Below, one piece after another: positions 2,757 through 24,034 of a stretch of 60,238 nt of DNA; the first letter of the stretch is position 1, and every line of letters begins with the position of its first letter. The stretch lies in NCBI GenBank assembly GCA_017482205.1, contig JAFUNK010000006.1, positions 1-60,238 of the forward strand, read 5' to 3'. Below the pieces are notes generated by a model. It was given only the letters and a program-made list of their open reading frames with translations. It ran no database searches and had not been told where the DNA came from. The position numbers were made by a program, and so were the translations under genes. This DNA is from Lachnospiraceae bacterium. GTDB taxonomy: Bacteria; Bacillota; Clostridia; Lachnospirales; Lachnospiraceae.

Positions 2757-2891
2757 TTAATAAGACCAGTAATACTTTGTTATACTATCTGTCTGTATGG
2801 TATACACTTCCTTTGCTTCTTCCATTTGCTCCCTCATGGAAAGTATTGCTTCTTTAAAAGCGGATAGCTTTTCAGTGTCTATTCTGTACAT
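2757..2891 (-). pseudogene. Truncated LXG/WXG effector N-terminus (44 aa)
   Basis: The 44-residue product begins MYRIDTEKLSAFKEA, nearly the same as the start of the 963-aa effector at 21038-23929 (MYRIDTEKLAKFKAA). It stops at W42-S-Y-stop, the position where the full effector has its W-E-G turn. The ATG at 2891 follows GTAGGAACTATAAA. It is therefore a stub that kept its ribosome site and first helix. It sits directly after two small helical genes, the usual place of an LXG effector behind its Lap partners. It could be pure decay, or a short helical partner still made from the operon. The decay reading is favoured because the WXG turn and second helix are gone. Confidence 0.7.
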
Positions 2892-2901
2892 TTTATAGTT
2901 C

Positions 2902-3252
2902 CTACTCTTGCCCTGCTTCCTGCTGTAGCCGTAGGAGTTCCTCATGATAGGCCGCATCTTCTTTTTGCAATGCCGAATATGCATTTCGCAAAGAATTTTC
3001 ATAACTGGTTATGGTAAAAATTACTCTATCGGTATTTGTTCCTAATTCTTTGTCCACTCCTTTTACAGCACAGGACATTTCCATCTGAATATCTGATGTC
3101 AGACTTTCTACAGAATATCCATTTATCGTCTGCGAGTCTACATTGACTACTTCTTTCTTTTTACCAATATCTATACATCTTGCAACTGCGTGAACCAATC
3201 TTCCGATATCTCTGTTACAACGTTCCATTTCATTACATCTACATTTTAACAC
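2902..3252 (-). CDS. Small helical T7SS accessory protein (Lap2/YwqH-like position)
   Basis: This 116-aa protein is predicted mostly helical, with a Cys/Arg-rich N-terminus (MLKCRCNEMERCNRDIG) and a C-terminal coiled coil (SALQKEDAAYHEELLRLQQ). A GTG at 3252 follows GAGGGAG; an ATG at 3228 is the alternative start. I do not recognise the family by sequence. Small helical proteins directly upstream of an LXG effector act as targeting partners in characterised streptococcal and bacillar loci (Lap1/Lap2, YwqH/YwqI). The gene's position between the 97-aa gene and the LXG stub suggests the same role, perhaps for the full-length effector encoded elsewhere in the window. Confidence 0.55.
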   Translation of the reverse strand: MLKCRCNEMERCNRDIGRLVHAVARCIDIGKKKEVVNVDSQTINGYSVESLTSDIQMEMSCAVKGVDKELGTNTDRVIFTITSYENSLRNAYSALQKEDAAYHEELLRLQQEAGQE

Positions 3253-3268
3253 CGTATATCAACTCCCT

Positions 3269-3562
3269 CTATAGTGCATTTTTTGCAGTTTCATTTATTA
3301 CTGCTGTATCTTCTGCATGTATCTTAATTGTGCTTCCGAACTCATCCAATTTACTTTCTATTTCCGCAACGCTTCCATCTTCTGTTAAAATTGTTCCAAT
3401 CAGACTTTCCTGCGCACTTCCCTCATATGAAACAGCAATTTCTTCCCCACAATTTCTAAATAAAACCTTCTTCGCCTCCAATGGTATTTTTCCTGACTGT
3501 ATACTTTTTCCCAGTACCAATACCGCTTCCGGGGTCAATATATCCTTTATTCCACTACTCAT
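3269..3562 (-). CDS. Small T7SS accessory protein (Lap1-like position)
   Basis: This 97-aa protein is soluble and has no cysteine-pair or enzyme motif apart from one NCGEE. Its C-terminal half (ESKLDEFGSTIKIHAED) resembles in tone the small helical partners found upstream of LXG effectors. Its start codon overlaps the stop of the upstream YukD-like gene as ATGA, so translation of the two is probably coupled. Function is inferred from context only; family membership was not established. Confidence 0.5.
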   Translation of the reverse strand: MSSGIKDILTPEAVLVLGKSIQSGKIPLEAKKVLFRNCGEEIAVSYEGSAQESLIGTILTEDGSVAEIESKLDEFGSTIKIHAEDTAVINETAKNAL

Positions 3563-3819
3563 CTTTCATCCCCTCCATACCATATAACACTTCCATCATG
3601 CAAATTACATTGTTCAAGAAGCATGTCCCCTTTTATAAGCATAATAGGGTTTTTGGCTCTCAAAAAACAATTTGTTATATCATTAGTATCCATTCCTAAC
3701 CAAAAGCCTTGATTCAATGCCACAATCAGTTCATTGGCCGTAATCTGTTTAGGCACCTCTATATCAAAAGTTTCTTGTGTTTTTCTGTTCTCAAAAATCA
3801 GTATATATGTATCTTTCAT
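3559..3819 (-). CDS. YukD/EsaB-like ubiquitin-fold protein
   Basis: The 86-aa protein has the beta-grasp pattern of the YukD/EsaB family, a conserved small cytoplasmic component of Firmicute type VII secretion. It shows a strand, DIEVPKQITANELIVAL as the strand-helix unit, then IMLIKGDMLLEQCNLHDGSV, which matches the family's LLIKGD...L..DGD ending. The ATG at 3819 follows AAAGGATATCAGTA; an in-frame start nine codons upstream lacks a good site. It lies between a WXG100-like gene and the two small accessory genes. In known systems EsaB is needed for secretion or regulates it; that role is assumed here. Confidence 0.8.
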   Translation of the reverse strand: MKDTYILIFENRKTQETFDIEVPKQITANELIVALNQGFWLGMDTNDITNCFLRAKNPIMLIKGDMLLEQCNLHDGSVIWYGGDER

Positions 3820-3907
3820 TACTGATATCCTTTCCCATATAGCCAAATTTCTCTTTTTATAAGGTCGGGTCGGATATATACACGATACTCCAACCCGACT
3901 ATCCTTC

Positions 3908-4210
3908 TTACAGCGTACTTCCGCCTGCTGCCTTTGTTGCTTCTATATCAATATTTCCTTTCATCTCTGCAGATGCTTTCACGACACCGCCCAGTGCATT
4001 GATCTTATCTGCATATGCTTTAATTACACCACTAATCTCTTCATACCTGTTTAATAATTCTGTTGATGCATTTCCATAGACTCCATCCTGTGCAATAATA
4101 TTCACTTTTTCATTTATGTTCTGTAACAAAGCCATTAGATTTTCGGCATAGCTTTCAAATTCAGCGCCTTTTCTTTGTAAACCATCTTTTGATATACTAT
4201 TCATTGCCAT
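3908..4210 (-). CDS. WXG100-like protein with VYG turn
   Basis: This 100-aa protein has the length and two-helix pattern of WXG100/ESAT-6 proteins. The central turn reads DGVYGNAS rather than W-x-G, an aromatic variant known in Firmicutes. Helices run roughly residues 8-40 and 50-85 (LLNRYEEISGVIKAYADKI). GTAGGAGGGTAGGAAA lies before the first two ATG codons. It follows a second WXG gene by 12 bases, so the two may form the usual secreted dimer. It is the first or second substrate expected for the EssC ATPase upstream. Confidence 0.8.
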   Translation of the reverse strand: MAMNSISKDGLQRKGAEFESYAENLMALLQNINEKVNIIAQDGVYGNASTELLNRYEEISGVIKAYADKINALGGVVKASAEMKGNIDIEATKAAGGSTL

Positions 4211-4222
4211 TTTCCTACCCTC

Positions 4223-4537
4223 CTACATTTTGAAAATTTGATTAAAAGATGTTTTTGTCTTACCGACAGCAGTATCATATGCATCTGCTGTACTTTCACC
4301 CCAGCCGGCAATAGAACTAATCACCTCAGGCAATTCTTCCAGACTCTTCCTAAATGTCGCAAACTCTGTATGCAGCAACTCCAAGTCTTCGCCCTCCCAG
4401 TATTCTGACAAGCCGTTTTCCAATGCTGTCAAGTCACCAACAAACGTATCTAATTCTCCCGCCGCTGCTCTTAGTTCCTGACAATTTTCCTGTAATACAG
4501 CTCCATCTGCTCCAACAGTTCCCTTTCCAATATTCAT
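4223..4537 (-). CDS. WXG100 family secreted protein (EsxA-like)
   Basis: This 104-aa protein carries the W-x-G motif as YWEGEDLELLHTEF near residues 46-60, between two amphipathic helices, as in EsxA/ESAT-6. The start at 4537 follows AAGGAGAGAAAAAA. WXG100 proteins are both substrates and structural partners of type VII secretion and bind EssC. It sits in the operon directly before the VYG-type paralogue. The C-terminus (TKTSFNQIFKM) has no strong Y-x-x-x-D/E export signal apart from STADAYDTAVG, so the true signal may lie there. Confidence 0.88.
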   Translation of the reverse strand: MNIGKGTVGADGAVLQENCQELRAAAGELDTFVGDLTALENGLSEYWEGEDLELLHTEFATFRKSLEELPEVISSIAGWGESTADAYDTAVGKTKTSFNQIFKM

Positions 4538-4600
4538 TTTTTTTCTCTCCTTTTTTTATATTTATGTATTAACTAAATACATATCATAATAAATCAGTCC

Positions 4601-4996
4601 CTAAAGATATTTTTCCGTTTCCACCATCTTTAGTTCTTTTTCCACCACAAACATATCCTGCGGTTTTAATACTGCTGTTTCTTCTCCTGTGGTCACATCT
4701 TCACTTAAAAGTTGTGTTTCTTCCGCACCAATATCTTTTACTATTTTAGGTTTCTTTTCCTTTTTCGTTTTCTTTAATTGAATCGGTGCGTTACTTTTTT
4801 GTATTTTTTGAATCGCCCATTTTCTACGAATACCTGTCAGTTCCAAAAATACAGTCGGTATGTGAAAATAGAAAAACAGAAAAATTGCTACTATAGCAAA
4901 AATGATTGCTCCTGCTACACATAGCCAAAATAGTATCTGATAACTCTGTAATTGATTCTCTACTTGTTGTAATTTTCCAGCTGTCATATATCCCAT
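4601..4996 (-). CDS. Single-pass membrane protein with Thr-x-x-Leu tail
   Basis: This 131-aa protein has one long membrane segment (about residues 21-44, ILFWLCVAGAIIFAIVAIFL and following), then a basic stretch (KKTKKEKKPK) and an acidic tail. The tail carries two E-E-T-x-x-L motifs: T94-Q-L-L and T107-A-V-L. Such acidic pThr motifs are typical kinase sites and FHA ligands in actinobacterial and firmicute Hanks-kinase systems. Four bases separate it from the kinase gene upstream. I infer that it is a kinase substrate that docks FHA domains of EssC or of the protease. I do not recognise the family; it is not obviously EssA. Confidence 0.7.
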   Translation of the reverse strand: MGYMTAGKLQQVENQLQSYQILFWLCVAGAIIFAIVAIFLFFYFHIPTVFLELTGIRRKWAIQKIQKSNAPIQLKKTKKEKKPKIVKDIGAEETQLLSEDVTTGEETAVLKPQDMFVVEKELKMVETEKYL

Positions 4997-4999
4997 AAA

Positions 5000-6700
5000 T
5001 TATTCCACCCTCGTGTCAAATGCATTACTAATTGCACTATTAGAATACTCAATTCCTTCTTCTACCTGCTCTTTCAAGCTCAGAATTCTTTCCAGACCGG
5101 AAATATCTGTAACTTCTATATCCGTTTCCAGACGCACTTGGATATTTTCCAACTGTGCCTCCATTTCCTCTCTGGTCACACCTGCTCTTTGAAAGTTAAC
5201 TGCATTAATATATATCTGCGTACATAACTCTCTGTAAACAATCAATGCCGTTGTAGAATTATCAATTTTTGCTATATCGCCCTCTGCTGCCTCTGTTATA
5301 TCCTGCCAATAATCTGCATAACTGATGAATGTATCGCCTGATCTGCTTTCTTTCCCTATTTTACTGTAATAGCCGGCAATCCTGCTCAAACATTCCGCCC
5401 TGAAAATTTGTTGTTCTTCAAGTGTTTCCGCATTTTTTGCTATATCCAGCCATTTTTGAGCTAACGTTTTATTTCCCTGCTCTTCATAAGAGTAAAAATA
5501 AGCAACTCCCATTTTATAAGCAAACTCCTCATAACCGGCAACATTGCTTCTGAATATTTCTTCATATGTCATCCCATCGCTATCTTTTATCAGTATGGAA
5601 CGCATCAATGCATCTTCCTCTGCCGTAAACACATCATCTTCTAAAAATACCAACTCTAAAAGTGCCAGGTATGCTTGTTCATTCTGCGGTTCTAATTGCA
5701 ACGCCAATAAATATTTCTCCAGCTTTTCTTCCATGGTCGGCTGACTTTTCGCTTCTTCCAAAAACAATTCATAATTCCCCGAAGAAAGTTGTTTTGACTG
5801 TAAATTGAGCATACCTGCTCCAACAGAAAATAGTGTTGCCATGCATAATGTCATTACAAATAGCCCCATTCTTTTCTTCTGTTTGTTCAAATATCTGTTG
5901 TCCAACTCATCATAATGCTCTAATGCATACAACAATTCCGCACAGGACTGAAATCTTTCTGCCGGATTTTGGGCTGTACACTTTAATAAAATTTTTTCCA
6001 GTCCCTGTGACAATCCCGGATTCCACTCTCTAATCGGTCGCATTTCATACGGTGGTTCACAAGGATTATGTCCTGTTACCAAATGATATATCGTTGCCCC
6101 TAATGAATAGATATCTGTTCTGGCATCCGTCTGCCCCATACCACCAAACTGCTCCGGAGCCGCATATCCCTTTGTTCCTAAACACGTAGTATCTTCCACA
6201 TTCACTTCTTTATATTCTCTTGCTGTTCCAAAATCTATCAATGAAATAGTCCCATTGGGTTTTAACATAATATTGGAAGGTTTTAAGTCCCGGTATATAA
6301 TCGGTGGTTCTTGCGAATGTAAATATGCAAGAACCTCGCACAACTGTTTTGCCCACTCTATTACATTTTCCTGAGACTGAGCACCTTCTTCTACCAGTTT
6401 CTTTGCCAGTGTATTCCCTTCTATGTAATCCATCACTATTAAGAAGCTTCCCTCGCCGTCCACCACATCAACAATACTGGGCAGATATTGGTGGTTTAGC
6501 TTCTTAAGCATTTCTGTTTCCACAATCAGCCCCTGTCTTACTACTTCATAATTGTGAATGCCATCTTTGCGCACCTCTTTAATTGCCCACTGCTTATTAG
6601 CTCTTTCATTCATTGCCAGGTAAACAACACTCATTCCTCCCTGACCGATTTTATTTAGTATCTTGTACTTTCCTTCTATAACAGAACCTATTTCTAACAT
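5000..6700 (-). CDS. Transmembrane Ser/Thr protein kinase with EssB-like layout
   Basis: This 566-aa protein has an N-terminal Hanks-type kinase (residues about 10-265) with a full motif set: glycine loop IGQGGMSVVYLA, catalytic Lys in AIKEV, YRDLKPSNI, DFG in LIDFGTAREY and activation-loop end GTKGYAAPEQF. One membrane segment follows at about 281-301 (GLFVMTLCMATLFSVGAGML). The external part is about 260 residues of TPR-like helices (EKYLLALQLEPQNEQAYLAL), not PASTA repeats. Canonical T7SSb EssB/YukC has the same order (kinase fold, TM, external helices) but is a pseudokinase. Here the kinase looks active and no other EssB candidate is present in the operon. It is paired with the PP2C phosphatase 9 bases upstream. 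Confidence 0.92.
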   Translation of the reverse strand: MLEIGSVIEGKYKILNKIGQGGMSVVYLAMNERANKQWAIKEVRKDGIHNYEVVRQGLIVETEMLKKLNHQYLPSIVDVVDGEGSFLIVMDYIEGNTLAKKLVEEGAQSQENVIEWAKQLCEVLAYLHSQEPPIIYRDLKPSNIMLKPNGTISLIDFGTAREYKEVNVEDTTCLGTKGYAAPEQFGGMGQTDARTDIYSLGATIYHLVTGHNPCEPPYEMRPIREWNPGLSQGLEKILLKCTAQNPAERFQSCAELLYALEHYDELDNRYLNKQKKRMGLFVMTLCMATLFSVGAGMLNLQSKQLSSGNYELFLEEAKSQPTMEEKLEKYLLALQLEPQNEQAYLALLELVFLEDDVFTAEEDALMRSILIKDSDGMTYEEIFRSNVAGYEEFAYKMGVAYFYSYEEQGNKTLAQKWLDIAKNAETLEEQQIFRAECLSRIAGYYSKIGKESRSGDTFISYADYWQDITEAAEGDIAKIDNSTTALIVYRELCTQIYINAVNFQRAGVTREEMEAQLENIQVRLETDIEVTDISGLERILSLKEQVEEGIEYSNSAISNAFDTRVE

Positions 6701-6709
6701 TTCCTTCTC

Positions 6710-7480
6710 CTAAAATACTTTTAGTATAATAGCCGATATATTATCTTCTTCTTTTCTTTTTTTGATAGTCTTAACCAACTGCTTAAGTGTTTCCTGCATC
6801 TGTCGCTCCGTTCCCAGCTTTTCAAAATTCATTGCTTTTTCGATTTCACACTTCTGCACTACATGCCTAAAACCATCTGAACAAATCAAAAAAACTATAG
6901 GATCATAAAGCTTCATTTTCCAGAAATCCGGTTGTGGTTTTGCTGCGGCACCTACACATTGAAGTAAAACACTCCTATTCGGAGATTGTTCTGCCTGCTC
7001 TTCTGTCATTCTCCCCGCATCTATCTCCTGCTGCACATAGGTATGATCATGCGTTTTTTGAAACATTTTCTCTCCATCATGCAAGTACACTCGTGTATCA
7101 CCCACATTAACTATGTAGCATTCACAATCTATTATCAGTAACGCACTTACTGTTGTTCCTATTGCTTTTCCTGTTGTATCTGTGTACTCCTTTAATTTCT
7201 TATCTGTATCCAGAAGCACTTGCATTAAACTATCTTTAATAACCTTTTCCCGATTTTCTCTTTCCAGTAGGGATGGCAGAACATTTATGAACCATTCTTC
7301 CAATTCATGCACCATTGTAGCACTAGCCAGCTCTCCTTCATTCAAACCGCCCATACCGTCACATACTGCTGCCAATGCAAGTCTTCCCCAAAAGGAAGAT
7401 GCTACCTTTACCAGTATTGCATCTTGATTTACCTTTTTCTTAATTCCTGTATCAGAAATTGCCGCAACTTGAATTTCCAT
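6710..7480 (-). CDS. PP2C-family Ser/Thr phosphatase
   Basis: This 256-aa protein is a PPM/PP2C phosphatase that reverses Hanks-kinase phosphorylation in the cytoplasm. Metal-binding and catalytic motifs are intact: NQDAIL, AAVCDGMGGLNEGE, VGDTRVYLHD, LICSDGF and KKRKEEDNISAIIL. The ATG at 7480 follows AAGGAGCGGGAGT, which overlaps the end of the protease gene. It sits between the FHA protease and the kinase, a usual phosphatase-kinase pairing, but inside a type VII operon. It probably resets phosphorylation of EssC-associated or FHA-binding proteins. Confidence 0.92.
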   Translation of the reverse strand: MEIQVAAISDTGIKKKVNQDAILVKVASSFWGRLALAAVCDGMGGLNEGELASATMVHELEEWFINVLPSLLERENREKVIKDSLMQVLLDTDKKLKEYTDTTGKAIGTTVSALLIIDCECYIVNVGDTRVYLHDGEKMFQKTHDHTYVQQEIDAGRMTEEQAEQSPNRSVLLQCVGAAAKPQPDFWKMKLYDPIVFLICSDGFRHVVQKCEIEKAMNFEKLGTERQMQETLKQLVKTIKKRKEEDNISAIILKVF

Positions 7481-7491
7481 ACTCCCGCTCC

Positions 7492-9057
7492 TTATATCCG
7501 AAAACAAAACTCTTCATTCGCCAATCGTATCCTGTCTCCACTCGTCAGTTTTACAGATTGCCCCGATTTCAAACGGGTTCCGTTCAAAAATGTACCGTTT
7601 GTTGCCTGTAAATCCTCCAAATAAAATCCACCATTTGTCTGCCTGATTGCAGCATGACTACGACTGACAGAAGGATTATTTTTCACACAATAATCCACCT
7701 TAAGACTTTCCTTTCCTAAATAAAACGTATTCTTATTAATTGTAATATTCTCATCTGTCTTACATCTTATCAGCGTTGCTGTCACTAAATCTTTACAAAA
7801 ATCACTACCCAATACGGTTGTTTCCCCTGCATTCCCCGAAGGAACAACCTGATGAAGTACTCCTGTTTCCTCCATAATTCCCGGCAATTGAAGCTGTCTT
7901 TTTTCCAGAACAAGTTTAGAAGTTCTTGGGGATGCTTCTTTTTCAGTACCTTTGTCACCTTTTCTTACAATTAGTATCAATAATACAACTACTGTTATCA
8001 ATAATAGCAATATGACTATTCCGCCAATCAACAGATAACTACTATTTCCTTCTATACAAAGTGCCGCCTCCGCAGCTTTTAATTCCAAGAGTCCTTTATC
8101 TAACTCTTCCTGTGTTAAAACCTCTTTTTCTAACAAAAGTCTGGCATTCTCAATCGCCGCTTGAAAGATTTCTATACTTTCTTTTGTGTAACCATCTGTA
8201 TTCTTTTCCTCAGCAGCCTTAACAGCAGCCTCCAAGACAGAACGGTCTACTACCTCTGCTTTTTCTTCTTCACACACAGTATAAGGAATTCCCAAGGCAT
8301 CCAGCACAGAAGTGATTTCCGAAATATGTACCGAATAGTAATACCCGTCATCCATAATCTGCTGATTCATTCCAACAACTGCTCCTGCTTCATTGAGCAA
8401 CGGACCACCACTGTTTCCTTCCGAAACCACTGCACTGTGCTGCACATACAGAATTCCATTTACCATAGTCTTTTTAGATACAATGCCATTCATAACGCTG
8501 ACATCATCTTTGGTGTAAAAGGATATATCCTGTGCCGCCTGAATATCCTCCGGAAAACCTAATGTGTATACTTGCGTAGTTTCCACTATACTCTCTTCTT
8601 CAACATTTAGTTGTAAAGGTGTTCTGTCATATATTATCTGGGATAACTGCAACACTGCAAAATCCATTTCTTCACTGGCAGTAACTACCGTTGCATCAAT
8701 GCTGATATCCCGCTTTACGACTACTTTCACCGTAAACTGCAGTTTATCTGCCTCTTCTTCAGCTAAACCATATTCTTCTGCAACACTGCTTCTTAATTCC
8801 TCTGTTACGTTCAGACAATGATAATTTGTAATAAGGTATTCTGCTCCCTCTTCGTTTCCAATCAAAAATCCACTTGCTCCCTGTACTATATTGCATTCTC
8901 CTGTTTCATCAACAAAAACCAGATTCACCTGCAAAATACCATTACGTGCTTCATATATGGCGTTACTGTTTCCATCCGATACCGAATCCGCCGTTACATT
9001 AACGGGCAACAATAAAAACAAACATATCAGTGCGATTAAAACTATTCCTTTTTTCAC
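7492..9057 (-). CDS. Membrane trypsin-like protease with FIVAR and C-terminal FHA domains
   Basis: The 521-aa protein starts with a signal sequence (VKKGIVLIALICLFLLL), then an extracellular S1C-type protease with triad His80 (TNYHCLN), Asp132 (MDFAVLQL) and Ser216 (EGNSGGPL). A FIVAR-like helical domain (about 274-333), a membrane segment (about 340-365) and a cytoplasmic FHA domain (about 429-521; SRSHAAI, TNGTFLNG) follow. The juxtamembrane part holds two Thr-x-x-Leu motifs (EETGVL, GETTVL), so the protein may bind its own phosphorylated linker or that of the small membrane protein. The GTG start at 9057 overlaps the upstream stop as GTGA. It could link kinase signalling inside to cleavage of secreted proteins outside. 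Confidence 0.9.
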   Translation of the reverse strand: MKKGIVLIALICLFLLLPVNVTADSVSDGNSNAIYEARNGILQVNLVFVDETGECNIVQGASGFLIGNEEGAEYLITNYHCLNVTEELRSSVAEEYGLAEEEADKLQFTVKVVVKRDISIDATVVTASEEMDFAVLQLSQIIYDRTPLQLNVEEESIVETTQVYTLGFPEDIQAAQDISFYTKDDVSVMNGIVSKKTMVNGILYVQHSAVVSEGNSGGPLLNEAGAVVGMNQQIMDDGYYYSVHISEITSVLDALGIPYTVCEEEKAEVVDRSVLEAAVKAAEEKNTDGYTKESIEIFQAAIENARLLLEKEVLTQEELDKGLLELKAAEAALCIEGNSSYLLIGGIVILLLLITVVVLLILIVRKGDKGTEKEASPRTSKLVLEKRQLQLPGIMEETGVLHQVVPSGNAGETTVLGSDFCKDLVTATLIRCKTDENITINKNTFYLGKESLKVDYCVKNNPSVSRSHAAIRQTNGGFYLEDLQATNGTFLNGTRLKSGQSVKLTSGDRIRLANEEFCFRI

Positions 9058-12000
9058 TGTGCATCCTCTTTTCTGTTTATAATCTTTGCAATACAAATGG
9101 ATAGCAGTGCAACTCCCCCTATCACCGCTATACCCAAAAGGATATTTCTCTTTTGTGCAGTCTCACCATTCCAATTCCCCAATGCTACTTCGGCTTCCCT
9201 TATCACCCAGATGTCGGTAGAGACAATAATATTGTCATAAACTAACTCACTTATATTTCCTGCCTCATCTGTTGCTACAACCAGTACTGTTTCCGGGTTC
9301 TGCATCTCACCTATTTCAAAAGAAACTATTCCGTTATTTCTTTCCAGCATTTCCTTAGCATAGCTTTGTATAATATTTTCTCCTAAATAGATCTGCAGTT
9401 CTTTTAGCATTACATTATCCTGCACATCTATCGTAACTCTCTGTGTTTCTTTACGATAAACTCCTGCTGACTCCAATCCTGCAAGCACTACACTGGGTGC
9501 CGTTCTATCAACTACAAAAGCAATTTCTGTTCCCTTGATACGGTTGTCCGATTTGTTTCCTGCAATATCTATTGATGAAAGTGTTACGACATAATAACCA
9601 TCTTCAGCAAAATGCTCACTATTGATTATATACGAGTATGCACTCCTACCATCCTGCTCTCCCTCTTTTTCTATTACATAGTCCTGTTCTGCCACCAATG
9701 TACGGATTTCTCCATTATGACTACATGTGATTTTTATATCCTTCAACTCATCCACATTGATTTCGGTTATTTTGATATCAGGTACTTCACTATTGTAATA
9801 TCTCTTAATCACCTGCTCTGTAAGACTATCTAACATATATACCGAACCAAACCGATTCACTGAAAATGTAATTGCTTCTTCACTTACATTCCCTGCATAG
9901 TCTTCCACATGCATTGACAGCGTGTACCAATCATCCATACTGCTGGCATATTCAAAATCATCACATACTATTTTGTAACCATTTCCTTCCGCTGTTTTTG
10001 TATATTGTACAACACTGCTGCCATTCTCTTTCCCTTCCAAGGTAATCCATGTTTTAGTATCGTCAAGATAACTGTCTTCATATGTCATTACAGGTTGTAC
10101 TGCACCATTATTTGCCGACATTGCCCCAACGCCAACAAATTCCAATTCAGGTGCTGTGGTATCTACTATAAAATACTCGCTCTGTTGTATAGGTGCTGTA
10201 TTTCCGGCAAGGTCCGAAACTTTTACAACAAATTGATATATTCCGTCCTCTTCAAAGGTAATTGGCAATACATATTTCCCGTTTTCACTTCTAAAATTCC
10301 CCAATGAAGGCAATGCATCCACATTTTTACCTTCTATCACTTCAACAGATACCAACTCTGATGAAAAAGTCAAATCTTCAATCGTAATATACGCAGTATG
10401 TGTCACATTAAAGTAATAGCCATTTTTCGGTTCACCTGCATCGTAGAAAATGTTTACAGAAGGTACCGTCTTATCAACCACAAACGTTCCGCTTTGATAC
10501 TCTTCTGTGCTGTGACCTGCTCTGTCCAGACAACTAAACGAAAACGTATAAATATCATCTGTACTAAACACCGTTTCACAAGTATATGTACAATTTATTG
10601 TATGCGTAATTCCATCACAATTTTCAGCTCCATGATGTACCCATTCTCCGACATTTACCTGTGTTCCATTCGCAGCATCTACAACGAAATTTGTTCCTTC
10701 TACAAAAAAGGTATAATCACGCACTGTTATAACTGCCGATTTATCTGTGTTATAGTACATACCGTTACTTGCCGTTTCCCTATTAAACTCTACATTTACG
10801 ACCGGTGCAGTCTTGTCAATGCAAAAACTGCTTCCCGCGATTTCTGCTTTGTTCCCTGCCATATCCACACAGGAAATATTAAAGGCATAACTGCCTTCCT
10901 GAACAAAGCTATATTGTATTGCATATCCCTCTCCGCTCTTTATCCACGATGTCGCATCTACCTCTTCATAGTAAGAACTGCCGTCAGCAGTTTTTCCAGT
11001 TATTATCATAGATAAGGTTTCCACATCCAGATTTTTATCCTCAATAAGAATATTTGCTACCATGTCACTACTAAAACAAATTCCTGCATATTCACTATAT
11101 ACTCCCCCATCTGCTCCTGTCAGTGAAATACTTATTTCAGGCTTTTTGCTATCTACTATCATTATTTGAGAACAAACTGTTTTGATACCATCTGTGCTCA
11201 TTGCATTTTCCAATATGTCATCTGCCTGAGTTAAAATACGATACCTGCCATCACCGGGTAATGTATAAGATATTCGTACAGGTCCCTCAAAATCCTCCTG
11301 TTGCTCTATGTCTACTTCTCCTATCTTTGCCTCATCATAATCTGATGCACTTTCAACCTTCACACTATCGGGGTTCAAATTCATGTCTGAAATTACAACC
11401 GTCCCCACAAATGGTTGTGCATAGTAATATATTTCTTCCCCTTCCGCCTCCACTCTCTGGGAAGAATTGGTCGTATTAGTTGTATACTCATAAACTATAT
11501 CCGGTGCCTGATTATCCACTGCATAGTAAACAGAATCGTTTATCGGTTCCTCTTGCACATCGATAGGACATTTATTGCCTGCATTATCGGTAATCACTAT
11601 TTCCGTTAACTGAAAAATTGCCTCATAATTACCTGTACTACCTCGTAATTCCGTCTCATAGTAGACGTACATTCTCCCCATATCATCTACTCCGAATGCA
11701 TTCTCTTCCACATGATAACTTTGTGTTGTAGTTCCACTTTCATCTGTTATCAATACCGTAAAATCCACCGCTTCAATACCAGAGACGCATTGTTCTTTCC
11801 CCGCAATGACCGTGTCCTTTACCATTAGTTTTACCGCAATCTTTTCGTTATCATATACCATGCCTTCTCCGGCTTCTACCACATAACTCTGACCAATAGC
11901 ATCACCCCCACTAACTTGAACCAACATATCTTCCGTTCCCGTAAACGCAACCACTACCTGACGCTCCGGCTTTGTATTATCGATACAAATTTTCTGTTCC

Positions 12001-13352
12001 ACTACTTCTCCCACATTACCAAACTCGTCATAAGCACGAATATAATAAGTCCGATTTTGTTCACCGGTAAACAATTCTCCGGATGTCGTGAAGATATATT
12101 TATCGTCTTGCAACCATGGCACTTCCGAACAAAGAACAGTTCCTTCCGCAAAACTTTTACTTGAAGCTATTTCAACTTTCACTACTGTACTGTCATCAGT
12201 TGCTATTATTGCCATTTGCAACGGCTTATCATTTTGGATTTCAGAATACCAATCCTGTATTTTTCTCTCTCCAGCTTTTAATGTTATCAAGACTTCAGGC
12301 CCTTTATTGTCCAAACCAAACTCCGAATAAGGCTCTTCCAACACTTGATTTCCAACATAATCACAAGCATCCACTTTAATTGTAAAGCTATATGCCTGTC
12401 CACTTTTTCTCTCTACGGTATACTCATAGTATCCGCTTCCCGCATTATAGCTCATTGACTGAGGGCTATTGTTTAATAATATATTTACCTGACTTACTCC
12501 ACAGGCTGCACAATTATCCTCCGGATCAACCACACTTGCCCTGAAAGTAATAGTCTGACTTCCCCATATTTTCTGTCCTTCTTCAAGTGCTTGGAATTCT
12601 TCTCCGTTTACACTATACAGAACTTCCGTCACCAGCGGAGCTTTATCGTCTTTTTGCACATAAAAGGCCTCACTTATCACTTCTGCAAGCAAAGTTCCTC
12701 TACGATACAATCCGGCAGTAGCATATACTATACTATTCTCATTACATTTGACTGTATAATTGCATCTGCTAAGTATGCCGGCTTCTGTACTGATACTACC
12801 GGTTACAAATCCATTTCCATAACTGCTTCCCCACTTAATCTCAATATCATCCAAGTTCATTTCATTACTCGTGGTTGTTTGCAAAGTCGCAATTGTGTTG
12901 CTACCATAATGCCCCTGTGTTTCAGAAAATGTAATATTAAAATTTTCTCCAGGCAACTTTTGGTCAAAGAAAATATGTAGCGTACTGTTTTCTGTAATAT
13001 CTTCCCATTCTCTTACAATTACATTTTCTCCTGTCAAATTGCCCGTTATAGTTTCAGTATTCCATGCATATCCTGCAACAAAATCTCCCTCGGTTTTAAT
13101 ATGCAAGCTGAAATCCATATCCGGTTCCACTGTAATATTACAGCTCCCCTGTGCACTAAGCCAGCCACTCTCTCCTAAATAAAAACCCTCACCGTAGGTG
13201 GTATCAAACTGTACACATATTGTTTTGGCACCATCTGAAGTGTTATCTTCTTCCTGAGCTTCTGCTGGCACGTATATCTGTAACAGACACAACAGTATAG
13301 TTAATCCCAGTGCAAAAATTCTCTTTCCTGCCTTTTTACCACCCTTTTTCAT
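9054..13352 (-). CDS. Giant Ig-repeat surface protein of the T7SS operon
   Basis: This 1432-aa protein has a signal peptide (MKKGGKKAGKRIFALG then a hydrophobic core ending AEA), many tandem bacterial Ig-like domains and a C-terminal anchor (NILLGIAVIGGVALLSICIAKI, then NRKEDAQ). The repeats share phrases such as DKTAPVVNVEF, CVDMAGNKA and VKVSDLAGNTAP about every 100 residues. It should project across the cell wall. Canonical T7SSb has a large extracellular EsaA/YueB; that gene is missing here, and this protein occupies a comparable place. Whether it forms part of a secretion conduit or is a separate adhesin is unknown. It is followed by the protease gene with overlapping GTGA. Confidence 0.85.
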   Translation of the reverse strand: MKKGGKKAGKRIFALGLTILLCLLQIYVPAEAQEEDNTSDGAKTICVQFDTTYGEGFYLGESGWLSAQGSCNITVEPDMDFSLHIKTEGDFVAGYAWNTETITGNLTGENVIVREWEDITENSTLHIFFDQKLPGENFNITFSETQGHYGSNTIATLQTTTSNEMNLDDIEIKWGSSYGNGFVTGSISTEAGILSRCNYTVKCNENSIVYATAGLYRRGTLLAEVISEAFYVQKDDKAPLVTEVLYSVNGEEFQALEEGQKIWGSQTITFRASVVDPEDNCAACGVSQVNILLNNSPQSMSYNAGSGYYEYTVERKSGQAYSFTIKVDACDYVGNQVLEEPYSEFGLDNKGPEVLITLKAGERKIQDWYSEIQNDKPLQMAIIATDDSTVVKVEIASSKSFAEGTVLCSEVPWLQDDKYIFTTSGELFTGEQNRTYYIRAYDEFGNVGEVVEQKICIDNTKPERQVVVAFTGTEDMLVQVSGGDAIGQSYVVEAGEGMVYDNEKIAVKLMVKDTVIAGKEQCVSGIEAVDFTVLITDESGTTTQSYHVEENAFGVDDMGRMYVYYETELRGSTGNYEAIFQLTEIVITDNAGNKCPIDVQEEPINDSVYYAVDNQAPDIVYEYTTNTTNSSQRVEAEGEEIYYYAQPFVGTVVISDMNLNPDSVKVESASDYDEAKIGEVDIEQQEDFEGPVRISYTLPGDGRYRILTQADDILENAMSTDGIKTVCSQIMIVDSKKPEISISLTGADGGVYSEYAGICFSSDMVANILIEDKNLDVETLSMIITGKTADGSSYYEEVDATSWIKSGEGYAIQYSFVQEGSYAFNISCVDMAGNKAEIAGSSFCIDKTAPVVNVEFNRETASNGMYYNTDKSAVITVRDYTFFVEGTNFVVDAANGTQVNVGEWVHHGAENCDGITHTINCTYTCETVFSTDDIYTFSFSCLDRAGHSTEEYQSGTFVVDKTVPSVNIFYDAGEPKNGYYFNVTHTAYITIEDLTFSSELVSVEVIEGKNVDALPSLGNFRSENGKYVLPITFEEDGIYQFVVKVSDLAGNTAPIQQSEYFIVDTTAPELEFVGVGAMSANNGAVQPVMTYEDSYLDDTKTWITLEGKENGSSVVQYTKTAEGNGYKIVCDDFEYASSMDDWYTLSMHVEDYAGNVSEEAITFSVNRFGSVYMLDSLTEQVIKRYYNSEVPDIKITEINVDELKDIKITCSHNGEIRTLVAEQDYVIEKEGEQDGRSAYSYIINSEHFAEDGYYVVTLSSIDIAGNKSDNRIKGTEIAFVVDRTAPSVVLAGLESAGVYRKETQRVTIDVQDNVMLKELQIYLGENIIQSYAKEMLERNNGIVSFEIGEMQNPETVLVVATDEAGNISELVYDNIIVSTDIWVIREAEVALGNWNGETAQKRNILLGIAVIGGVALLSICIAKIINRKEDAQ

Positions 13353-13401
13353 TTGTACTTAAATCCTTTCTGCTTATAAATATCCAATATAACTTCAACC
13401 A

Positions 13402-16400
13402 CTATGTTTCCGGCGTATACAAAGGTGTTTTTAATTTCTCCAGATTTCCTGCACAAATATTAAACGCTTCGCCTACTTCCAAAGGCTTTGCAAATTCTCT
13501 CTGTACAGCCAACGATATATCTACCATTTTCTGCTCTGACAAATTGTAGAACAGATACATATTCAACACCTCTTTGACAGATTTCCATATTGGTGACGCG
13601 CCAAAATTCAGACTGGTATTCGGCATTTGTGCCATAATAATGCAGACCTTTAACATACGGTATCTATTTATAATGTTCACATATGCTTCTACTAAGTTTG
13701 CATTACTTCCCAGCACGGAATAACAGTCCCCTGCATTCATCACAAGCACCAGTAATGGAGCTTTTTCCAACTTCTTTTCATTACCACTTAACATCCACTG
13801 ATAACGTTCTTTCAATATTCCTGTCAAATTATTGATGTAACTCTCCACTTCTGCCGGATTACAGGAATAAACAACATCCTCTTTGTCTTGTCCAAAAGGC
13901 TCCAATTTTCTTTTCAAATTATCCACAATATGTATTTTAACCGGTGCTTCTTCCTTATGTTTCAACAAATCAGCAATTATATATTTCAAGAAGTTAGATG
14001 TTCCACCATGTTCTCTGCCACCAATACCGATTATTCCTGTTTGCAACAAATGCAGATAATCGAATTTTGTTGTAGCATAATTAATACCGGAAACCATTTT
14101 GTAGGCTTCGAATTTTCCTCCTGTCTGCCTTGTAATAAACTTTGCGGTAACAACTGCCGGAATTTCCGGTATTTTTACAGCTCCTAAACCTCTGTCTTTT
14201 TGGTTACTCTCTTCAATAAATTCTCTTATTTGCGTAATCTTTTCTATTTCTTTTTCTGCCGAAAAAGCAAGATAAATCTGCCCTTCATACAGTTCTTTGT
14301 CAATTTCCAGAATACAACGTCCGGGTTTATTATCCGGTTTTATCCGACAATGTTCAAAGGCATGTGTGTACTCTGCCGATTCATTACAAAACAACGCAAT
14401 TCTCTTTCCAAAGTTGGGAACATATTTGTACCCTACTGCTGTTGACTGTGACGTTGTCGCAACCATTGAAATTCCAACCGCAATACCTTCTCGGCAAATC
14501 GAGAGCAAATCTTCCTCATATTTGGGATACATTTCCCTGACCGCTCCAAAATTATCTATCATCACAATAATCTGAGATAGTTCTCTATAACCGCTTTCTC
14601 TATAAGCACTAAAAGAACTCAAACCCATTCCGGCTAAAAGGTTTTTACGTTTTTCTACTTCTTCTAATAGCATCTTTATCAGGTTCTTTAATTTCTCATC
14701 ATCCCTTGCAGTAACAATACCTCCCACACAGTTTAATGATTCAAAATTTTTCATAACCAGAGTTGCAAAATCCAGAATATATATGTTGACCTCATCTGAA
14801 CTGTATCTGTCCGCCAGACCACGTACCATAACCTGTAACAAATTACTTTTTCCATAACGTGAAGAACCCACAATGTAAATATGATTCTGGGTAAAGTTCA
14901 CTTCCGTTATTGCCTGCAACTGTCTTGACGGATCATCATAGTAACCAATAGGTACACATATGTCTCCCGTTTCTACTGCAACCTTCTCATTTGCATACGG
15001 AATTTGATACTCCAATGCCGGCATACAAATATTGGGAAGACTCTTTATTTTCCTTCCTGCACAATACTGTCTTATATACTCTACCAAGGCATCTAATTGT
15101 GACATGCTGCCCGTATCCTGTGCAGGTTTTTGCTCATAAATAACTGTCCTGCGTCCTGCTAAATCAATTCGATTTACTACAAAAGGCTTTACTTCTCCCA
15201 TACTGCTATTCGGAACCGTTGCACCGCTATACGCCGATTGAAACAGTTGAAATATTTCATTGTTTCCCACTTGTAAATATGCACGTCCCGGTTCCCGTAT
15301 TTCTGCGGCCAAAGGAGACTTTAAAACTTCATTACTATCTTCTTTATTCTGCACTTTTAAACATAGTTTAAATTTAGAATTACTCCAAATTTGATCATTA
15401 ACCACTCCTGCCGGTTTCTGTGTTGCTAAAATTAAATGTACCCCCAAGCTTCTTCCGATTCTGGCAGTACTTATCAATTCCTTCATAAACTCCGGTTGTT
15501 CGCTTTTTAATTCAGCAAATTCATCTACTATTAAAATCAGATGGGGCAAAGGTCGTTGTGTCTTTCCTGCTTTAAACAGGCGAATGTAATCATCTATATG
15601 ATTAACCTCGTTTTCCGCAAACAGTTCCTGCCTCTTCCGCAATTCTGCTCTGATAGAAAGAAGCGAACGATTGATTTCTTTCCCATCAATATTAGTAATT
15701 GCTCCATTTAAATGTGGCAGATTCTTAAACTGATTAACCATTCCGCCACCTTTAAAATCAATAATAATGAATCCGACTTCATAAGGATGGAACAATGTTG
15801 CCATTGAAAGAATATAAGTCTGCAAAATTTCACTTTTTCCGGAACCGGTAGTACCTGCCACCAAACCATGCGGTCCGTGTGCTTTTTCATGTAAATCTAA
15901 ATACACAACCTCATCACCACTCTTAACCCCCAAAGGTGTCGCCATGGAATCATATATTCTGGAATTTCTCCATCTCTGCTCCAGTTGCAATTCAGATGCA
16001 CTTTCTATATTTAAAAGTTGGAAAAGTGTTATATTTTTTGTCAATGCACTCTCCAAGCTTACTTCTTCCACATAAACACAGCCTAATCTGAGTGCTGCTT
16101 CTGCTGCCTGTTTTGCCGAAATATGCGGATAATAAAATTTCTGTATGTTCTCTCCGTCTTCTGTCTGTTGTACATATCCTTCATTTACTCCACTCTTTAA
16201 AAACACTCGTGAATCACAGTCCTTATTGACTAATTCTGCATATTCTTCAAAAAACAAAAATACAATTCCCAAGTCTTTTGCCTTTTCCACATAATTACTA
16301 ATAGGATGTCCGTTAATGTACTCTGAACGATACACAAAAATTACATAGTGGGGCTTTGTTTCCATTGCCTTTTCATCCATGCTTTCACGCTCTGAAAATT

Positions 16401-17949
16401 CTGCATAAAGATACTCCAATAATACCTTTCTACTTTCTTCATCATACATAAAATTTCTAACACCAATAGTTTCATTCTTTGTATGACGCAACCATCTTGC
16501 CCATGCAAAAAACGCCTTGTCCTCTTCTTTCAGGACAAAGAAAAATTTAATATCGTTATAATAATGAGTAGCCGATAACGTTAATATCAAATTCTTTGCT
16601 ATTTGATATAATTTTCCCCTTTCTCCTACAAAACCAACTGCATTTTTATTTTTTAATTCCAACATAACCGGCATTTCTTCTATATACTGATACTTGTCAT
16701 GTAGTAGTCTCGGATATTCTGTTAAGGGGTCTTCTGTATCTTTATACTCCGGTTCCCGATACTGTATCTGACAAACTGATTCCATAGTACCTTTACCAAT
16801 ATAACAACTTAGAAAATCTTTATCGTTTCTCTGCTTTTCAAACAATCTTGCATCAAAATCTTCTATAAAGGTCAGTTGTTCTTCCAACACACTGTTTCTT
16901 TGTCTGGCTAAATATTTTTCCTTTTCTCTGGCTGCCTGTATTTTTTCCTCCTGCATCAAAAGATAGTCTTCATATTGTTCTTGTCTTTTCGCAACACGCT
17001 CTTTATATCGTTTTCCTTGATTTCGATAATTCCATACTGCCATTACACCACTTAAAATCATTGCCCCCACACAATAAATCATGTAAACACCGCTTTTTCC
17101 CATCACTCCCCGCATTATCACAGTAAGCATTGCTGAGGCCAATATGGGCACAATTGTCATAATTAAATTAGTCTGTGGTTCTTCCGGTAACTGTTTTGGT
17201 GGGAGTATTTCCAATTTTTCGGTCGGTTCCCCATATAACTGCCTGACACTACGAAGAAATACCGGATACTTCATATGATTTTTTACAGGCCAAACACTTT
17301 CCACGTATAGTTTTGTATCAAATGGTAATTTTTCCGCGAAATAAATCCACCCATCTTCTATATAAAATTGACAACCGGAAAACGAGACAAAATCACAATT
17401 ATGTATTCTGCTACTCTTTTCATTTATGCGGCAACCATTTCGATATACCCCATACCTACACTTCTCTATATGCACTAAATAGCCATCTGTATCCTTTTCA
17501 AGACAGATTTCATCCTGTTCTATTTGCGGCAACAAAATGCGCACCATACTGTCTGTCAAGCCCCCAATACTTACTTGAGAGCAATTTCGACAATCCATAC
17601 GTTTGCTGTAATCATTATAGTCGCCACCAAAATCGCAGACCAATTCTATACAAAATAGTCGTTGTTCGGTTTTTGTAGAAAAAATTTGCAACACTTCACC
17701 CGGTATAAGACTCCATTCTCTTTTTAAAGATTCCTTTTCAACCGTAAGATAAACGGTATCGCCACATAAAACATTCCATTTTTCTTCTGCTCGTTTAAAA
17801 GAAATTTTAAATTCTATATCAAATTTTTCTTTTATAAATTTCAAATTTGCTTCTTTTTCAGTTCCTATTACTAATCCGGAGCCATATTCGTTCTTTAAAG
17901 ACACTTCTCTATAAATACCCTCTCCATATACTACAATTTTGTACTCCAT
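13402..17949 (-). CDS. essC: EssC-type FtsK/SpoIIIE ATPase of type VII secretion
   Basis: This 1515-aa motor has two N-terminal FHA-like domains (about 1-200), two membrane helices (about 265-310, LIMTIVPILASAMLTVIM and VYMIYCVGAMILSGVMAVW) and three FtsK-type ATPase domains. Domain 1 is complete: Walker A GTTGSGKSE near residue 697 and Walker B HLILIVDEFAEL. Domain 2 has GSSRYGKSN near 1030 with IVMIDNF. Domain 3 has a weak P-loop, GGREHGGTSN near 1310. This matches Firmicute EssC/YukBA, which drives export of WXG100 and LXG proteins. The start at 17949 follows AAGGAGATAAATAAG; a start 14 codons upstream lacks a site. It is the first gene of the operon, 55 bases from a hairpin repeat. Confidence 0.95.
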   Translation of the reverse strand: MEYKIVVYGEGIYREVSLKNEYGSGLVIGTEKEANLKFIKEKFDIEFKISFKRAEEKWNVLCGDTVYLTVEKESLKREWSLIPGEVLQIFSTKTEQRLFCIELVCDFGGDYNDYSKRMDCRNCSQVSIGGLTDSMVRILLPQIEQDEICLEKDTDGYLVHIEKCRYGVYRNGCRINEKSSRIHNCDFVSFSGCQFYIEDGWIYFAEKLPFDTKLYVESVWPVKNHMKYPVFLRSVRQLYGEPTEKLEILPPKQLPEEPQTNLIMTIVPILASAMLTVIMRGVMGKSGVYMIYCVGAMILSGVMAVWNYRNQGKRYKERVAKRQEQYEDYLLMQEEKIQAAREKEKYLARQRNSVLEEQLTFIEDFDARLFEKQRNDKDFLSCYIGKGTMESVCQIQYREPEYKDTEDPLTEYPRLLHDKYQYIEEMPVMLELKNKNAVGFVGERGKLYQIAKNLILTLSATHYYNDIKFFFVLKEEDKAFFAWARWLRHTKNETIGVRNFMYDEESRKVLLEYLYAEFSERESMDEKAMETKPHYVIFVYRSEYINGHPISNYVEKAKDLGIVFLFFEEYAELVNKDCDSRVFLKSGVNEGYVQQTEDGENIQKFYYPHISAKQAAEAALRLGCVYVEEVSLESALTKNITLFQLLNIESASELQLEQRWRNSRIYDSMATPLGVKSGDEVVYLDLHEKAHGPHGLVAGTTGSGKSEILQTYILSMATLFHPYEVGFIIIDFKGGGMVNQFKNLPHLNGAITNIDGKEINRSLLSIRAELRKRQELFAENEVNHIDDYIRLFKAGKTQRPLPHLILIVDEFAELKSEQPEFMKELISTARIGRSLGVHLILATQKPAGVVNDQIWSNSKFKLCLKVQNKEDSNEVLKSPLAAEIREPGRAYLQVGNNEIFQLFQSAYSGATVPNSSMGEVKPFVVNRIDLAGRRTVIYEQKPAQDTGSMSQLDALVEYIRQYCAGRKIKSLPNICMPALEYQIPYANEKVAVETGDICVPIGYYDDPSRQLQAITEVNFTQNHIYIVGSSRYGKSNLLQVMVRGLADRYSSDEVNIYILDFATLVMKNFESLNCVGGIVTARDDEKLKNLIKMLLEEVEKRKNLLAGMGLSSFSAYRESGYRELSQIIVMIDNFGAVREMYPKYEEDLLSICREGIAVGISMVATTSQSTAVGYKYVPNFGKRIALFCNESAEYTHAFEHCRIKPDNKPGRCILEIDKELYEGQIYLAFSAEKEIEKITQIREFIEESNQKDRGLGAVKIPEIPAVVTAKFITRQTGGKFEAYKMVSGINYATTKFDYLHLLQTGIIGIGGREHGGTSNFLKYIIADLLKHKEEAPVKIHIVDNLKRKLEPFGQDKEDVVYSCNPAEVESYINNLTGILKERYQWMLSGNEKKLEKAPLLVLVMNAGDCYSVLGSNANLVEAYVNIINRYRMLKVCIIMAQMPNTSLNFGASPIWKSVKEVLNMYLFYNLSEQKMVDISLAVQREFAKPLEVGEAFNICAGNLEKLKTPLYTPET

Positions 17950-18007
17950 CTTATTTATCTCCTTGTACGATTGAAGCCTTCTTCGTTTCAAGTATCACAC
18001 ACAAAAA

Positions 18008-18069
18008 AAGAAAGCACCATAGCGTTTCACGAAAATTTTTGTATTTCGGAAACATTATGGTGCTTTCTT
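18008..18069. repeat. Repeat copy 3: hairpin between toxin array and essC operon
   Basis: Perfect 14-bp arms AAGAAAGCACCATA (18008-18021) and TATGGTGCTTTCTT (18056-18069) flank the GCGTTTCACGAAAATTTTT core. T-runs follow the stem in both directions (CTTTCTTTTTTT on minus, CTTTCTTTTTT on plus), so it should work as a two-way terminator. It lies only about 55 bases before the essC start, so the essC promoter must be inside that gap, inside the hairpin, or transcription must read through. Confidence 0.8.
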
Positions 18070-18342
18070 TTTTAACCACATGTCAAAATTCAACATATAT
18101 AATATCACATCTGCTGTTGCATATGTGTCTGCCACACGTATACCTGCTGCATAGGGATTTCCTCCTCCTGTCGCATATGCTAAAACGGTATCTCCCACAC
18201 TCATTCCACATCATAGAAAAATCGTCCGCCGCTGCTTTTGATGCCTCCCCTTACTGTTCCCCGCATTTCATCGGTTGCATCCTGATACAGATATAGTATA
18301 TTCTGGCTACTCTTCTCCTCAGATAGCGGAATATTTAATCCT
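18070..18342 (-). pseudogene. Third toxin cassette remnant (decayed)
   Basis: Minus-strand translation gives pieces matching the full effector's pre-toxin region: LYLYQDATDEMRGTVRGGIK, then FFYDV, then MSVGDTVLAYA and NPYAAGIRVADTYA. A single-base loss (GTGGAATG versus GTGGGAATG in the full gene) breaks the frame, and the sequence ends in an unrelated short tail before the hairpin. No toxin tip or immunity gene remains. It is the most decayed member of the array. Confidence 0.8.
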
Positions 18343-18525
18343 TGTTAGGGAAATGTGAAAGACATGATTTCTTAAGATACCGCCAACATAAGTAGGTTCA
18401 AAAATAGTGCAGGTTAAAAGGCTTGTGCCGCCGGAAGACCCCATCGGCAGAGCCGTTGGAAAAAGTATAATATGACATAGCTTCCCCTCCCCCCAACCAA
18501 TTTCTTATGCCACAGTCATACTTTT
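18343..18525. repeat. Conserved cassette leader, copy A
   Basis: This stretch aligns with 20428-20625 (shared runs such as TTGTTAGGGAAATGTGAAAG and ATTTCTTAAGATACCGCCAA). It lies at the head of the third toxin remnant, as copy B lies at the head of the second. It shows no coding pattern. It may be the conserved junction through which truncated cassettes were duplicated. Confidence 0.7.
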
Positions 18526-18629
18526 GTCTATTCTGCCTTATTTTCTCTGCTGATTTTCATTGAATTCTGTGAATGGATAAATTTTGAATTCTTCGGTATC
18601 GTGTGTTGTCAAGAAGGGAGGTGCATTTC

Positions 18630-20827: not shown

Positions 20828-21025
20828 TTAATTTTCTACCAACTCCAAATCATCTGGTAACAGAGTACACTGTGCTTTGGGATTTCCTTCTTCATCTAGT
20901 ATTTCAACTTCATATGCCTCTCGTGGTTCCTCAAATACCATAAGTATAGCACCGATTTCACCTTTTTTTACACCCTCTTTACAATCTTTCATAATCTTTA
21001 CTGTGTCATATTCCTTAAACTTCAT
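20828..21025 (-). CDS. DUF4926-like small protein, probable immunity/antitoxin partner
   Basis: The 65-aa protein has the SH3-like pattern of DUF4926: YDTVKIMKDCKEGVKKGEIG, then VFEEPREAYEVEILDEEG and LLPDDLELVEN. DUF4926 proteins commonly sit next to DUF6883 proteins, and here it follows the DUF6883-like toxin tip by 12 bases. AGGAGAGATT precedes ATG at 21025. It likely binds the toxin tip in the cytoplasm and blocks it. Confidence 0.75.
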   Translation of the reverse strand: MKFKEYDTVKIMKDCKEGVKKGEIGAILMVFEEPREAYEVEILDEEGNPKAQCTLLPDDLELVEN

Positions 21026-23929: not shown

Positions 23930-24034
23930 TTTCATTCCCCTATGTTGATTTTTCTGTTTTACCGGAATACTCCGGTTACATACCTTTCTGCCTATATACT
24001 TAAATTTCTTTATTGTGATTATCACGCACACACA

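Follow-up and report, generated by a model that had tools for sequence, protein, structure and literature searches.

A type VII secretion operon of the kinase, phosphatase and FHA kind without detectable EssB in a Lachnospiraceae genome, with a candidate phospho-docking module

Subtypes c to j of the type VII secretion system (T7SS) were described by Garrett, Higginson and Palmer in 2024, and the architecture that brings together a kinase, a PPM phosphatase and FHA domains, as in T7SSe and its kin, is already published (PMC11217815). In that description, TseC of T7SSe carries FHA domains with a well-conserved phosphothreonine-binding consensus, TseH consists of one transmembrane segment (TM) and an unstructured tail, TseI has a signal peptide, Ig-like repeats and a C-terminal TM, and TseK has one TM and a short cytoplasmic stretch. 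The same paper notes the EssB-like topology of the kinase TscD, raises phospho-regulation, and states that in T7SSb the degenerate FHA domains of EssC contact the EssB pseudokinase (PMC11217815). Here we analyze an operon in a 60,238-nucleotide stretch of DNA from a Lachnospiraceae bacterium (the window; GenBank assembly GCA_017482205.1, contig JAFUNK010000006.1). The reading that we somewhat favor is that it encodes a T7SS of the kinase/PPM/FHA kind without detectable EssB, with T7SSe-like gene content and an EssC that stands next to T7SSb, in which a phospho-docking module acts around EssC.

The operon beside described secretion systems

The operon runs on the minus strand from 17949 to 2902 and is compact, with intergenic gaps of -4 to 63 bp when the likely start codons are used. 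Its genes encode, in order, EssC, an Ig-like envelope protein, a trypsin-FHA membrane protein, a PP2C phosphatase, a Hanks kinase, a one-TM tail protein, two WXG100 proteins, a YukD-like protein and two small open reading frames (ORFs). An earlier note, made from the sequence alone, had placed EssC, WXG100 proteins and a YukD-like protein in one operon with the kinase, the phosphatase and an FHA protease; profile matches and spacing confirm this grouping and its coordinates.

The EssC/TsxC ATPase (13402..17949; 1515 aa from ATG 17949) has two degenerate N-terminal FHA folds, two predicted TMs and FtsK-type ATPase domains. It scores 1140.7 bits against TIGR03928 (cut-off 778.4) and is the only EssC above the family cut-off in its own genome, which is 74% complete. 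The large surface protein that follows (9054..13352; 1432 aa) has a signal peptide, bacterial Ig-like repeats and a C-terminal TM, with hydrophobic segments at its N- and C-termini and Big_13 and Big_3_3 over cut-off; it would be a TseI-like envelope stalk. The TseF-like PP2C/PPM phosphatase (6710..7507, from a TTG start, or from ATG 7480) matches PP2C_2 at 2.2e-13, and the TseD-like membrane kinase (5000..6700) matches Pkinase at 1.1e-48. Further along lie the WXG100-like proteins TsxA (4223..4537; E 2.5e-4) and TsxA2 (3908..4210; E 1.3e-3) and the YukD/EsaB-like ubiquitin-fold protein TsxB (3559..3846; E 2.2e-5, 25.6 bits against a cut-off of 27). The Pfam cut-offs were exceeded by Trypsin_2, FHA, PP2C_2 and Pkinase and not by the WXG100 pair or the YukD-like protein.

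The EssC FHA folds, the WXG100 pair, the ubiquitin-like protein, the TM kinase, the PPM phosphatase, the TseH-like protein and the Ig-like protein are shared with T7SSe, and also with T7SSd and T7SSj. For TseH and TseI the likeness to T7SSe is one of architecture only, set against published descriptions and not sequences. Unlike T7SSe, the window has a trypsin-FHA membrane protein where a DUF6382-FHA TseJ would be expected, the latter not being among the scanned operon proteins. Only one small one-TM protein with a cytoplasmic stretch was seen in the operon (4601-4996); it was assigned as TseH-like, and no separate TseK was recognized. The EssC also differs from that of T7SSe, having lost its FHA phosphothreonine residues and branching beside EssB-linked EssCs. 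Strict membership of T7SSe was rejected because the EssC phosphothreonine site and TseJ are both missing from the operon. T7SSf is possible for the EssC branch, T7SSe, T7SSf and T7SSj having been compared by description only.

With T7SSb (Ess/Yuk of Bacillus and Staphylococcus) the window shares the EssC family, WXG100, YukD and tandem degenerate FHA folds in EssC. Unlike T7SSb, it has a catalytically intact kinase and a phosphatase, and its own genome has no match to EssB (PF10140) or to the EsaA N-terminal model TIGR03929 at E<=10, as far as its completeness allows; no search was made for EssA. The earlier note had found EsaA unrecognizable, which agrees with this search. Absence of EssB is not peculiar to this genome. 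Of 250 genomes from its family, 65 contain an EssC at E<=1e-60 and 11 an EssB above cut-off, so EssC without EssB is common there.

Two further systems offer parallels. The threonine phosphorylation pathway of the type VI secretion system (T6SS) would work alike, since there a kinase (PpkA) phosphorylates a membrane component (TssL Thr14) and an FHA protein (Fha) binds (PMC3953482); it has no secretion parts in common with the window, where the reader would be a membrane protein with an external trypsin fold. Like the ESX mycosin MycP, the trypsin-FHA protein would be a serine protease of a T7SS, and for MycP the protein is needed for secretion while its protease activity is dispensable (PMC5082899). 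The window protein differs in joining a trypsin fold to a cytoplasmic FHA domain. Mycosins have a subtilisin fold. The word 'trypsin' does not occur in the main text of PMC11217815, where 'protease' refers to mycosin only, and PMC2605481 mentions one Bacteroides protein in which a trypsin domain follows two FHA domains. Beyond what we found published are a candidate T-x-[VIL]-L dock in TseH, the loss of the FHA site in an EssC clade with a trypsin-FHA protein that keeps its own, and the tracking of EssC by that reader. We found no prior description in the open-access literature of the motif tail, the T7SS-linked trypsin-FHA reader or the cassette in genomes without EssC.

Candidate phosphothreonine readers and docks

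Residues 15-245 of EssC gave an AlphaFold2 model with a predicted local distance difference score (pLDDT) of 84.8 and a predicted template modeling score (pTM) of 0.67. Its best Foldseek matches were 9qks_H, 1wv3 and 5fwh (1.6e-8 to 5.7e-7); 5fwh is titled EssC FHA and 9qks is a T7SSb core unit, while 1wv3 we take to be S. aureus EssC. The second FHA domain has, at its phosphothreonine site, Arg or Lys in 1/16 sequences of the window's clade, Ser in 0/16 and His in 0/16, whereas the other clades of the same family sample had them in 20/23, 22/23 and 23/23, respectively (39 rows, L066 being left out for want of an FHA match). The window EssC reads G-G at this site, without Ser and without His. 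The FHA-like domains claimed in the earlier note therefore hold up as folds, by model and structure search, and not as phosphothreonine-binding sites, by the alignment. EssC FHA domains as phospho-readers were rejected for the window's clade, in which these residues are absent; lacking the site, they would bind a partner without phosphorylation. In a 62-row EssC tree made by a quick method, the window and L117 belong to a clade of 28 rows whose sister group is the EssB-linked EssCs (support 98).

The trypsin-FHA membrane protein (7492..9096, likely start GTG 9057) consists of a signal peptide, a trypsin fold, a weak FIVAR-like stalk, a TM, a linker with the motif GETTVLG and a C-terminal FHA domain. 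Trypsin_2 matches at 5.8e-22 and FHA at 1.3e-17, with FIVAR below cut-off. We compared 51 such proteins, window included, after dropping identical proteins, proteins of <440 aa and two that were cut by contig ends. The Arg, His and Asn of the FHA domain are kept in 51/51 and the Ser in 49/51. The extracellular H-D-S triad is intact in 24/51, among them the window protein (H93-D145-S229, numbered from TTG 9096); the other 27 lack at least one triad residue, and one has Cys for Ser. By these alignments, the conserved part of the family is the cytoplasmic docking half. The FHA domain is by sequence a near-canonical phosphothreonine-binding one, and it, not EssC, is the likely phospho-reader. An active protease as the essential function was rejected because 27/51 lack the full triad.

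Related FHA proteins of another build were seen at other EssC loci, where proteins of 516-536 aa (L079, L082, L083, L084, L089, L059) resemble a vWA-TM-FHA arrangement, with a possible signal peptide in front; vWA was confirmed with Pfam in the three that were scanned (L079, L082 and L089).

A candidate for what the reader binds is found in the TseH-like protein (4601..4996), which has one TM and a cytoplasmic tail with the motifs EETQLL (T94) and EETAVL (T107), both positions having been checked. Its homologues, recruited through the TM region, have tails with tandem motifs such as ETTVL, ETELL and ATMVL. The pattern [DEGSNAQ]Tx[VILM][LIVMF] occurred 177 times in 50 held-out TseH tails, compared with an average of 15.3 over 500 shuffles (maximum 28), and at least once in 44/50 tails, against 13.2 expected; over all 57 distinct tails there were 203 motifs against 17.7 expected. 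The linkers between TM and FHA of the protease showed a similar excess (89 against 10.4, in 49/50), in a test that was not fully held out since several of the proteins were among nine already seen beforehand. In the window the corresponding residue is Thr426 of GETTVLG (7819..7821, position checked), a predicted phospho-acceptor. The linkers of DUF6382-FHA proteins were likewise enriched (55 against 7.1, in 21/28). No excess was present in the controls, where the numbers observed and expected were 39 and 34.7 for PP2C, 30 and 24.9 for the outer parts of the kinases, 157 and 180 for the Ig proteins, 34 and 36 for the outer parts of the proteases, and 17 and 20.9 for 86 further one-TM tails. FHA domains often recognize the residue three positions after the phosphothreonine. 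The tandem arrangement in TseH suggests, as judged from motif counts, a phosphothreonine dock.

Kinase, distribution and rival explanations

The kinase has a cytoplasmic kinase domain (~1-270), a TM (~278-300) and an outer TPR-like domain (302-566). Residues G21, K41, E61, D138, K140, N143 and D156 and the activation-loop residues T171 and T176 are invariant in 54/54 aligned kinases, a set that contains the window's and is limited to lengths of 500-620 aa. The enzyme accordingly looks active from its catalytic residues, as the earlier note had proposed. The outer domain gave a mainly helical model (pLDDT 89.5, pTM 0.88).

In the favored reading, the outer TPR domain of the kinase would sense an envelope or contact signal, and the kinase would phosphorylate the TseH tail and the protease linker between TM and FHA on threonines whose surroundings are similar to the activation loop of the kinase itself (D-T-T-C-L-G-T). 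The FHA domain of the protease would then bind phosphorylated TseH or its own linker, and this binding may gather the kinase, TseH and the protease around EssC, probably together with the Ig stalk; the PP2C phosphatase would reverse it. The external trypsin fold would be mainly a structural or sensing module, as in mycosins, and an active protease only in some members, possibly including the window's. Phospho-switching of type VII secretion in Bacillota is an open proposal. The operon names likely phospho-sites (TseH T94 and T107, linker T426), a likely reader (the FHA domain of the protease and not EssC) and a likely eraser, which reduces the question of a phospho-switch to simple in vitro tests. 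The phospho-controlled export put forward in the earlier note is plausible given a kinase, a phosphatase and FHA parts in an operon without detectable EssB; as a general idea it had already been published (PMC11217815).

Several observations weigh against this reading. The motif pattern was formulated on the first seven distinct TseH sequences, many motif copies are tandem repeats and not independent, 6/50 held-out tails have no motif, and the window TseH has only two. Kinase domains also contain more motifs than expected (84 against 24.6), an excess that we attribute to the activation loop; the substrates would then imitate the site in the kinase itself. In the FHA domain of the protease, a loop residue that is usually Arg is Lys in 44/51 and Arg in only 2/51, and the nearest relatives of the window protein, at L117 and L118, have lost the protease triad. 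In two genomes with the protease reader (G257 and G307) the only EssC found is T7SSb-like (1435 and 1329 bits). Finally, 18 of the 77 loci have PP2C and kinase together in a genome without an EssC match, and at 11 of these 18 the reader is of the DUF6382 type and lies next to Tad-type genes.

Those loci come from scanning a set of genomes with the alignment of the protease, guided by a single C-terminal FHA peptide pattern; of 147 confirmed stretches the best 80 were kept, and these represent 77 loci in 75 genomes. EssC (E<=1e-60) was found in 55/75 genomes, in proportions that depend on the reader: 44/47 for trypsin-FHA, 6/20 for DUF6382-FHA and 5/8 for others. Relative to the family background of 65/250, the Fisher test gave 5e-19 for the trypsin-FHA reader and 0.79 for the DUF6382 reader. 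The trypsin-FHA reader tracks EssC and the DUF6382-FHA reader does not. EssC and the kinase set share a locus, in differing gene orders, at L117, L126, L127, L146, L147 and L151 to L153. EssB was present in four of 50 reader-locus genomes, always with an EssC of 1250-1474 bits.

One rival explanation takes the kinase as a functional replacement of EssB, its cytoplasmic domain docking on the degenerate EssC FHA domains and its activity adding phospho-control of export. The same order of parts as in EssB (kinase fold, one TM, helical outer domain), which the earlier note had pointed out, is indeed seen, and a separate essB beside another essC, which that note had named as refuting its reading, was not found with PF10140 in the 74% complete genome. 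The EssC clade is sister to EssB-linked EssCs, and the FHA model best matches T7SSb EssC structures. Because the window EssC keeps degenerate FHA domains like those that contact the EssB pseudokinase in T7SSb (PMC11217815), phospho-independent docking of the kinase is conceivable. The sequence profile of the kinase points elsewhere. PF10140 does not match it at E<=0.1. Searched against the PDB, a profile of the outer domain matched consensus TPR proteins, with E-values as low as 1.3e-19, but EssB was not matched at E<=1, although an EssB profile, as positive control, found EssB/YukC there at 3e-24 to 1e-35; direct comparison of the outer domain with EssB by hhalign gave probabilities of 6.9 and 0.7. 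The capped match lists from structure comparison contain TPR, 14-3-3 and designed helical repeat proteins, with EssB not among the matches listed.

Kinase orthologues of 40-55% identity, moreover, occur in genomes without an EssC match, often adjoining Tad genes. Over 53 relatives the identity to the window kinase is 38-58%, and 49/53 alignments begin at residue 1 and extend into the outer domain (to residue 494 or beyond), in T7SS and EssC-less settings alike. Conversely, no kinase was seen in the retrieved flanks of five EssC loci, spread over four genomes, that belong to the clade of the window EssC, and EssB is above cut-off in none of those genomes. With a TPR-like outer domain without detectable EssB similarity and orthologues in EssC-less genomes, a kinase filling the EssB slot is not supported by these comparisons, and we regard the replacement as unlikely.

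The second rival, to which we give the same low standing, is that the kinase, phosphatase, FHA protein, TseH and Ig protein form a general envelope or pilus signaling cassette that is a mere neighbor of EssC and does not control secretion. It draws on the 18 loci without an EssC match, which indicate that part of the set may serve another machine, and on L158, where TadE, T2SSF and Peptidase_A24 are above Pfam cut-offs. The records of L155, L172 and L179 are not titled as metagenome-assembled genomes; the completeness of the scanned genomes is not reported. In the window, however, the set sits inside the operon, between EssC and the WXG100/YukD genes, and the tracking of EssC by the trypsin-FHA form speaks against a chance association. 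An ordinary Stk1/Stp1-like housekeeping pair unrelated to its neighbors is very improbable. The best curated models are indeed of the Stk1 and Stp1 types, both below their cut-offs (173 bits against 230 for Stp1), but the Stk1 model matched only in the kinase part, the outer domain is TPR-like, and gene order disfavors it, PP2C, kinase and TseH standing together at 55/77 loci with several others cut by contig ends.

In the favored reading the kinase, phosphatase, tail, reader and Ig set would moreover be a portable module, recruited here to type VII secretion, that also occurs beside Tad pilus genes without a T7SS. As a tentative proposal, less probable than the docking around EssC itself, the set would be an envelope-assembly module, with a multivalent TseH tail, that serves two unrelated machines, T7SS and Tad pili. 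Its reader would keep the phospho-docking half unchanged and exchange the outer or N-terminal part (trypsin or pseudo-trypsin, vWA, DUF6382) according to the machine; in the T7SS variant of the window, reading would have moved from EssC to a mycosin-like membrane protease. That this kinase set also adjoins Tad genes where the genome has no EssC match suggests that the kinase, phosphatase and TseH/TseI, counted as 'core T7SS components', may have a wider use.

In the window's own genome DUF6382 has a single match, an FHA gene that belongs to a Tad locus of contig C20. This apparent Tad pilus locus (L112, G000:C20:47500-65117) has no adjoining kinase that could be recognized by eye. In a Mobilisporobacter record with Tad-type genes, a TadE-like N-terminus is fused to a TNT domain (PF14021; L161:3404-4846), possibly a pilus-linked polymorphic toxin. 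A ParA/MinD-like gene, named by eye, adjoins the YukD-like gene, mostly near a DUF6382-FHA gene, in sister EssC loci (L052, L053, L054, L056, L058, L062, L065, L068 and others) and not in the window.

Flanking effector block, hairpins and small ORFs

The operon ends with two proteins of no known family, without a Pfam match at E<=0.1: one of 97 aa (3269..3562), which overlaps the YukD gene by 4 bp, and one of 116 aa (2902..3252), for which a small partner or substrate is a guess. The role of the small ORFs within 2757-3562 is uncertain. Among them, an 81-aa ORF (2757-3002) resembles the N-terminus of a 997-aa protein encoded upstream of the operon (44% over 43 aa, E 5e-11) and is probably a remnant.

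That 997-aa protein (21038..24031, minus strand) is a candidate effector with a C-terminal DUF6883 (4e-32) and, by eye, a WXG-like N-terminus. Next to it on the same strand lies a DUF4926 protein (20828..21025; 8e-13), from its position a candidate immunity partner. The effector block (18100-24031) also holds duplicated DNA fragments. Within it, ORF 19530-20102 is 85% identical to the effector over 98 aa and is followed by another possible immunity gene (19102-19515).

A near-perfect hairpin of 70-90 nucleotides is present in three long copies (2681-2752, 17979-18069 and 24020-24096), with the T7SS operon and the effector block lying between them; the copy at EssC has a folding energy of -35.2 kcal/mol (z -9.1). 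The remaining genome matches are either these palindromes matched in reverse or pieces of 25-32 nucleotides, three of the pieces lying within 270 bases of a contig start. Beyond the operon's end, a 241-aa ORF (1491-2216) without a Pfam match at E<=0.1 holds a CGVFAVYNAL stretch, which we take, by eye, to resemble a cysteine-peptidase active site.

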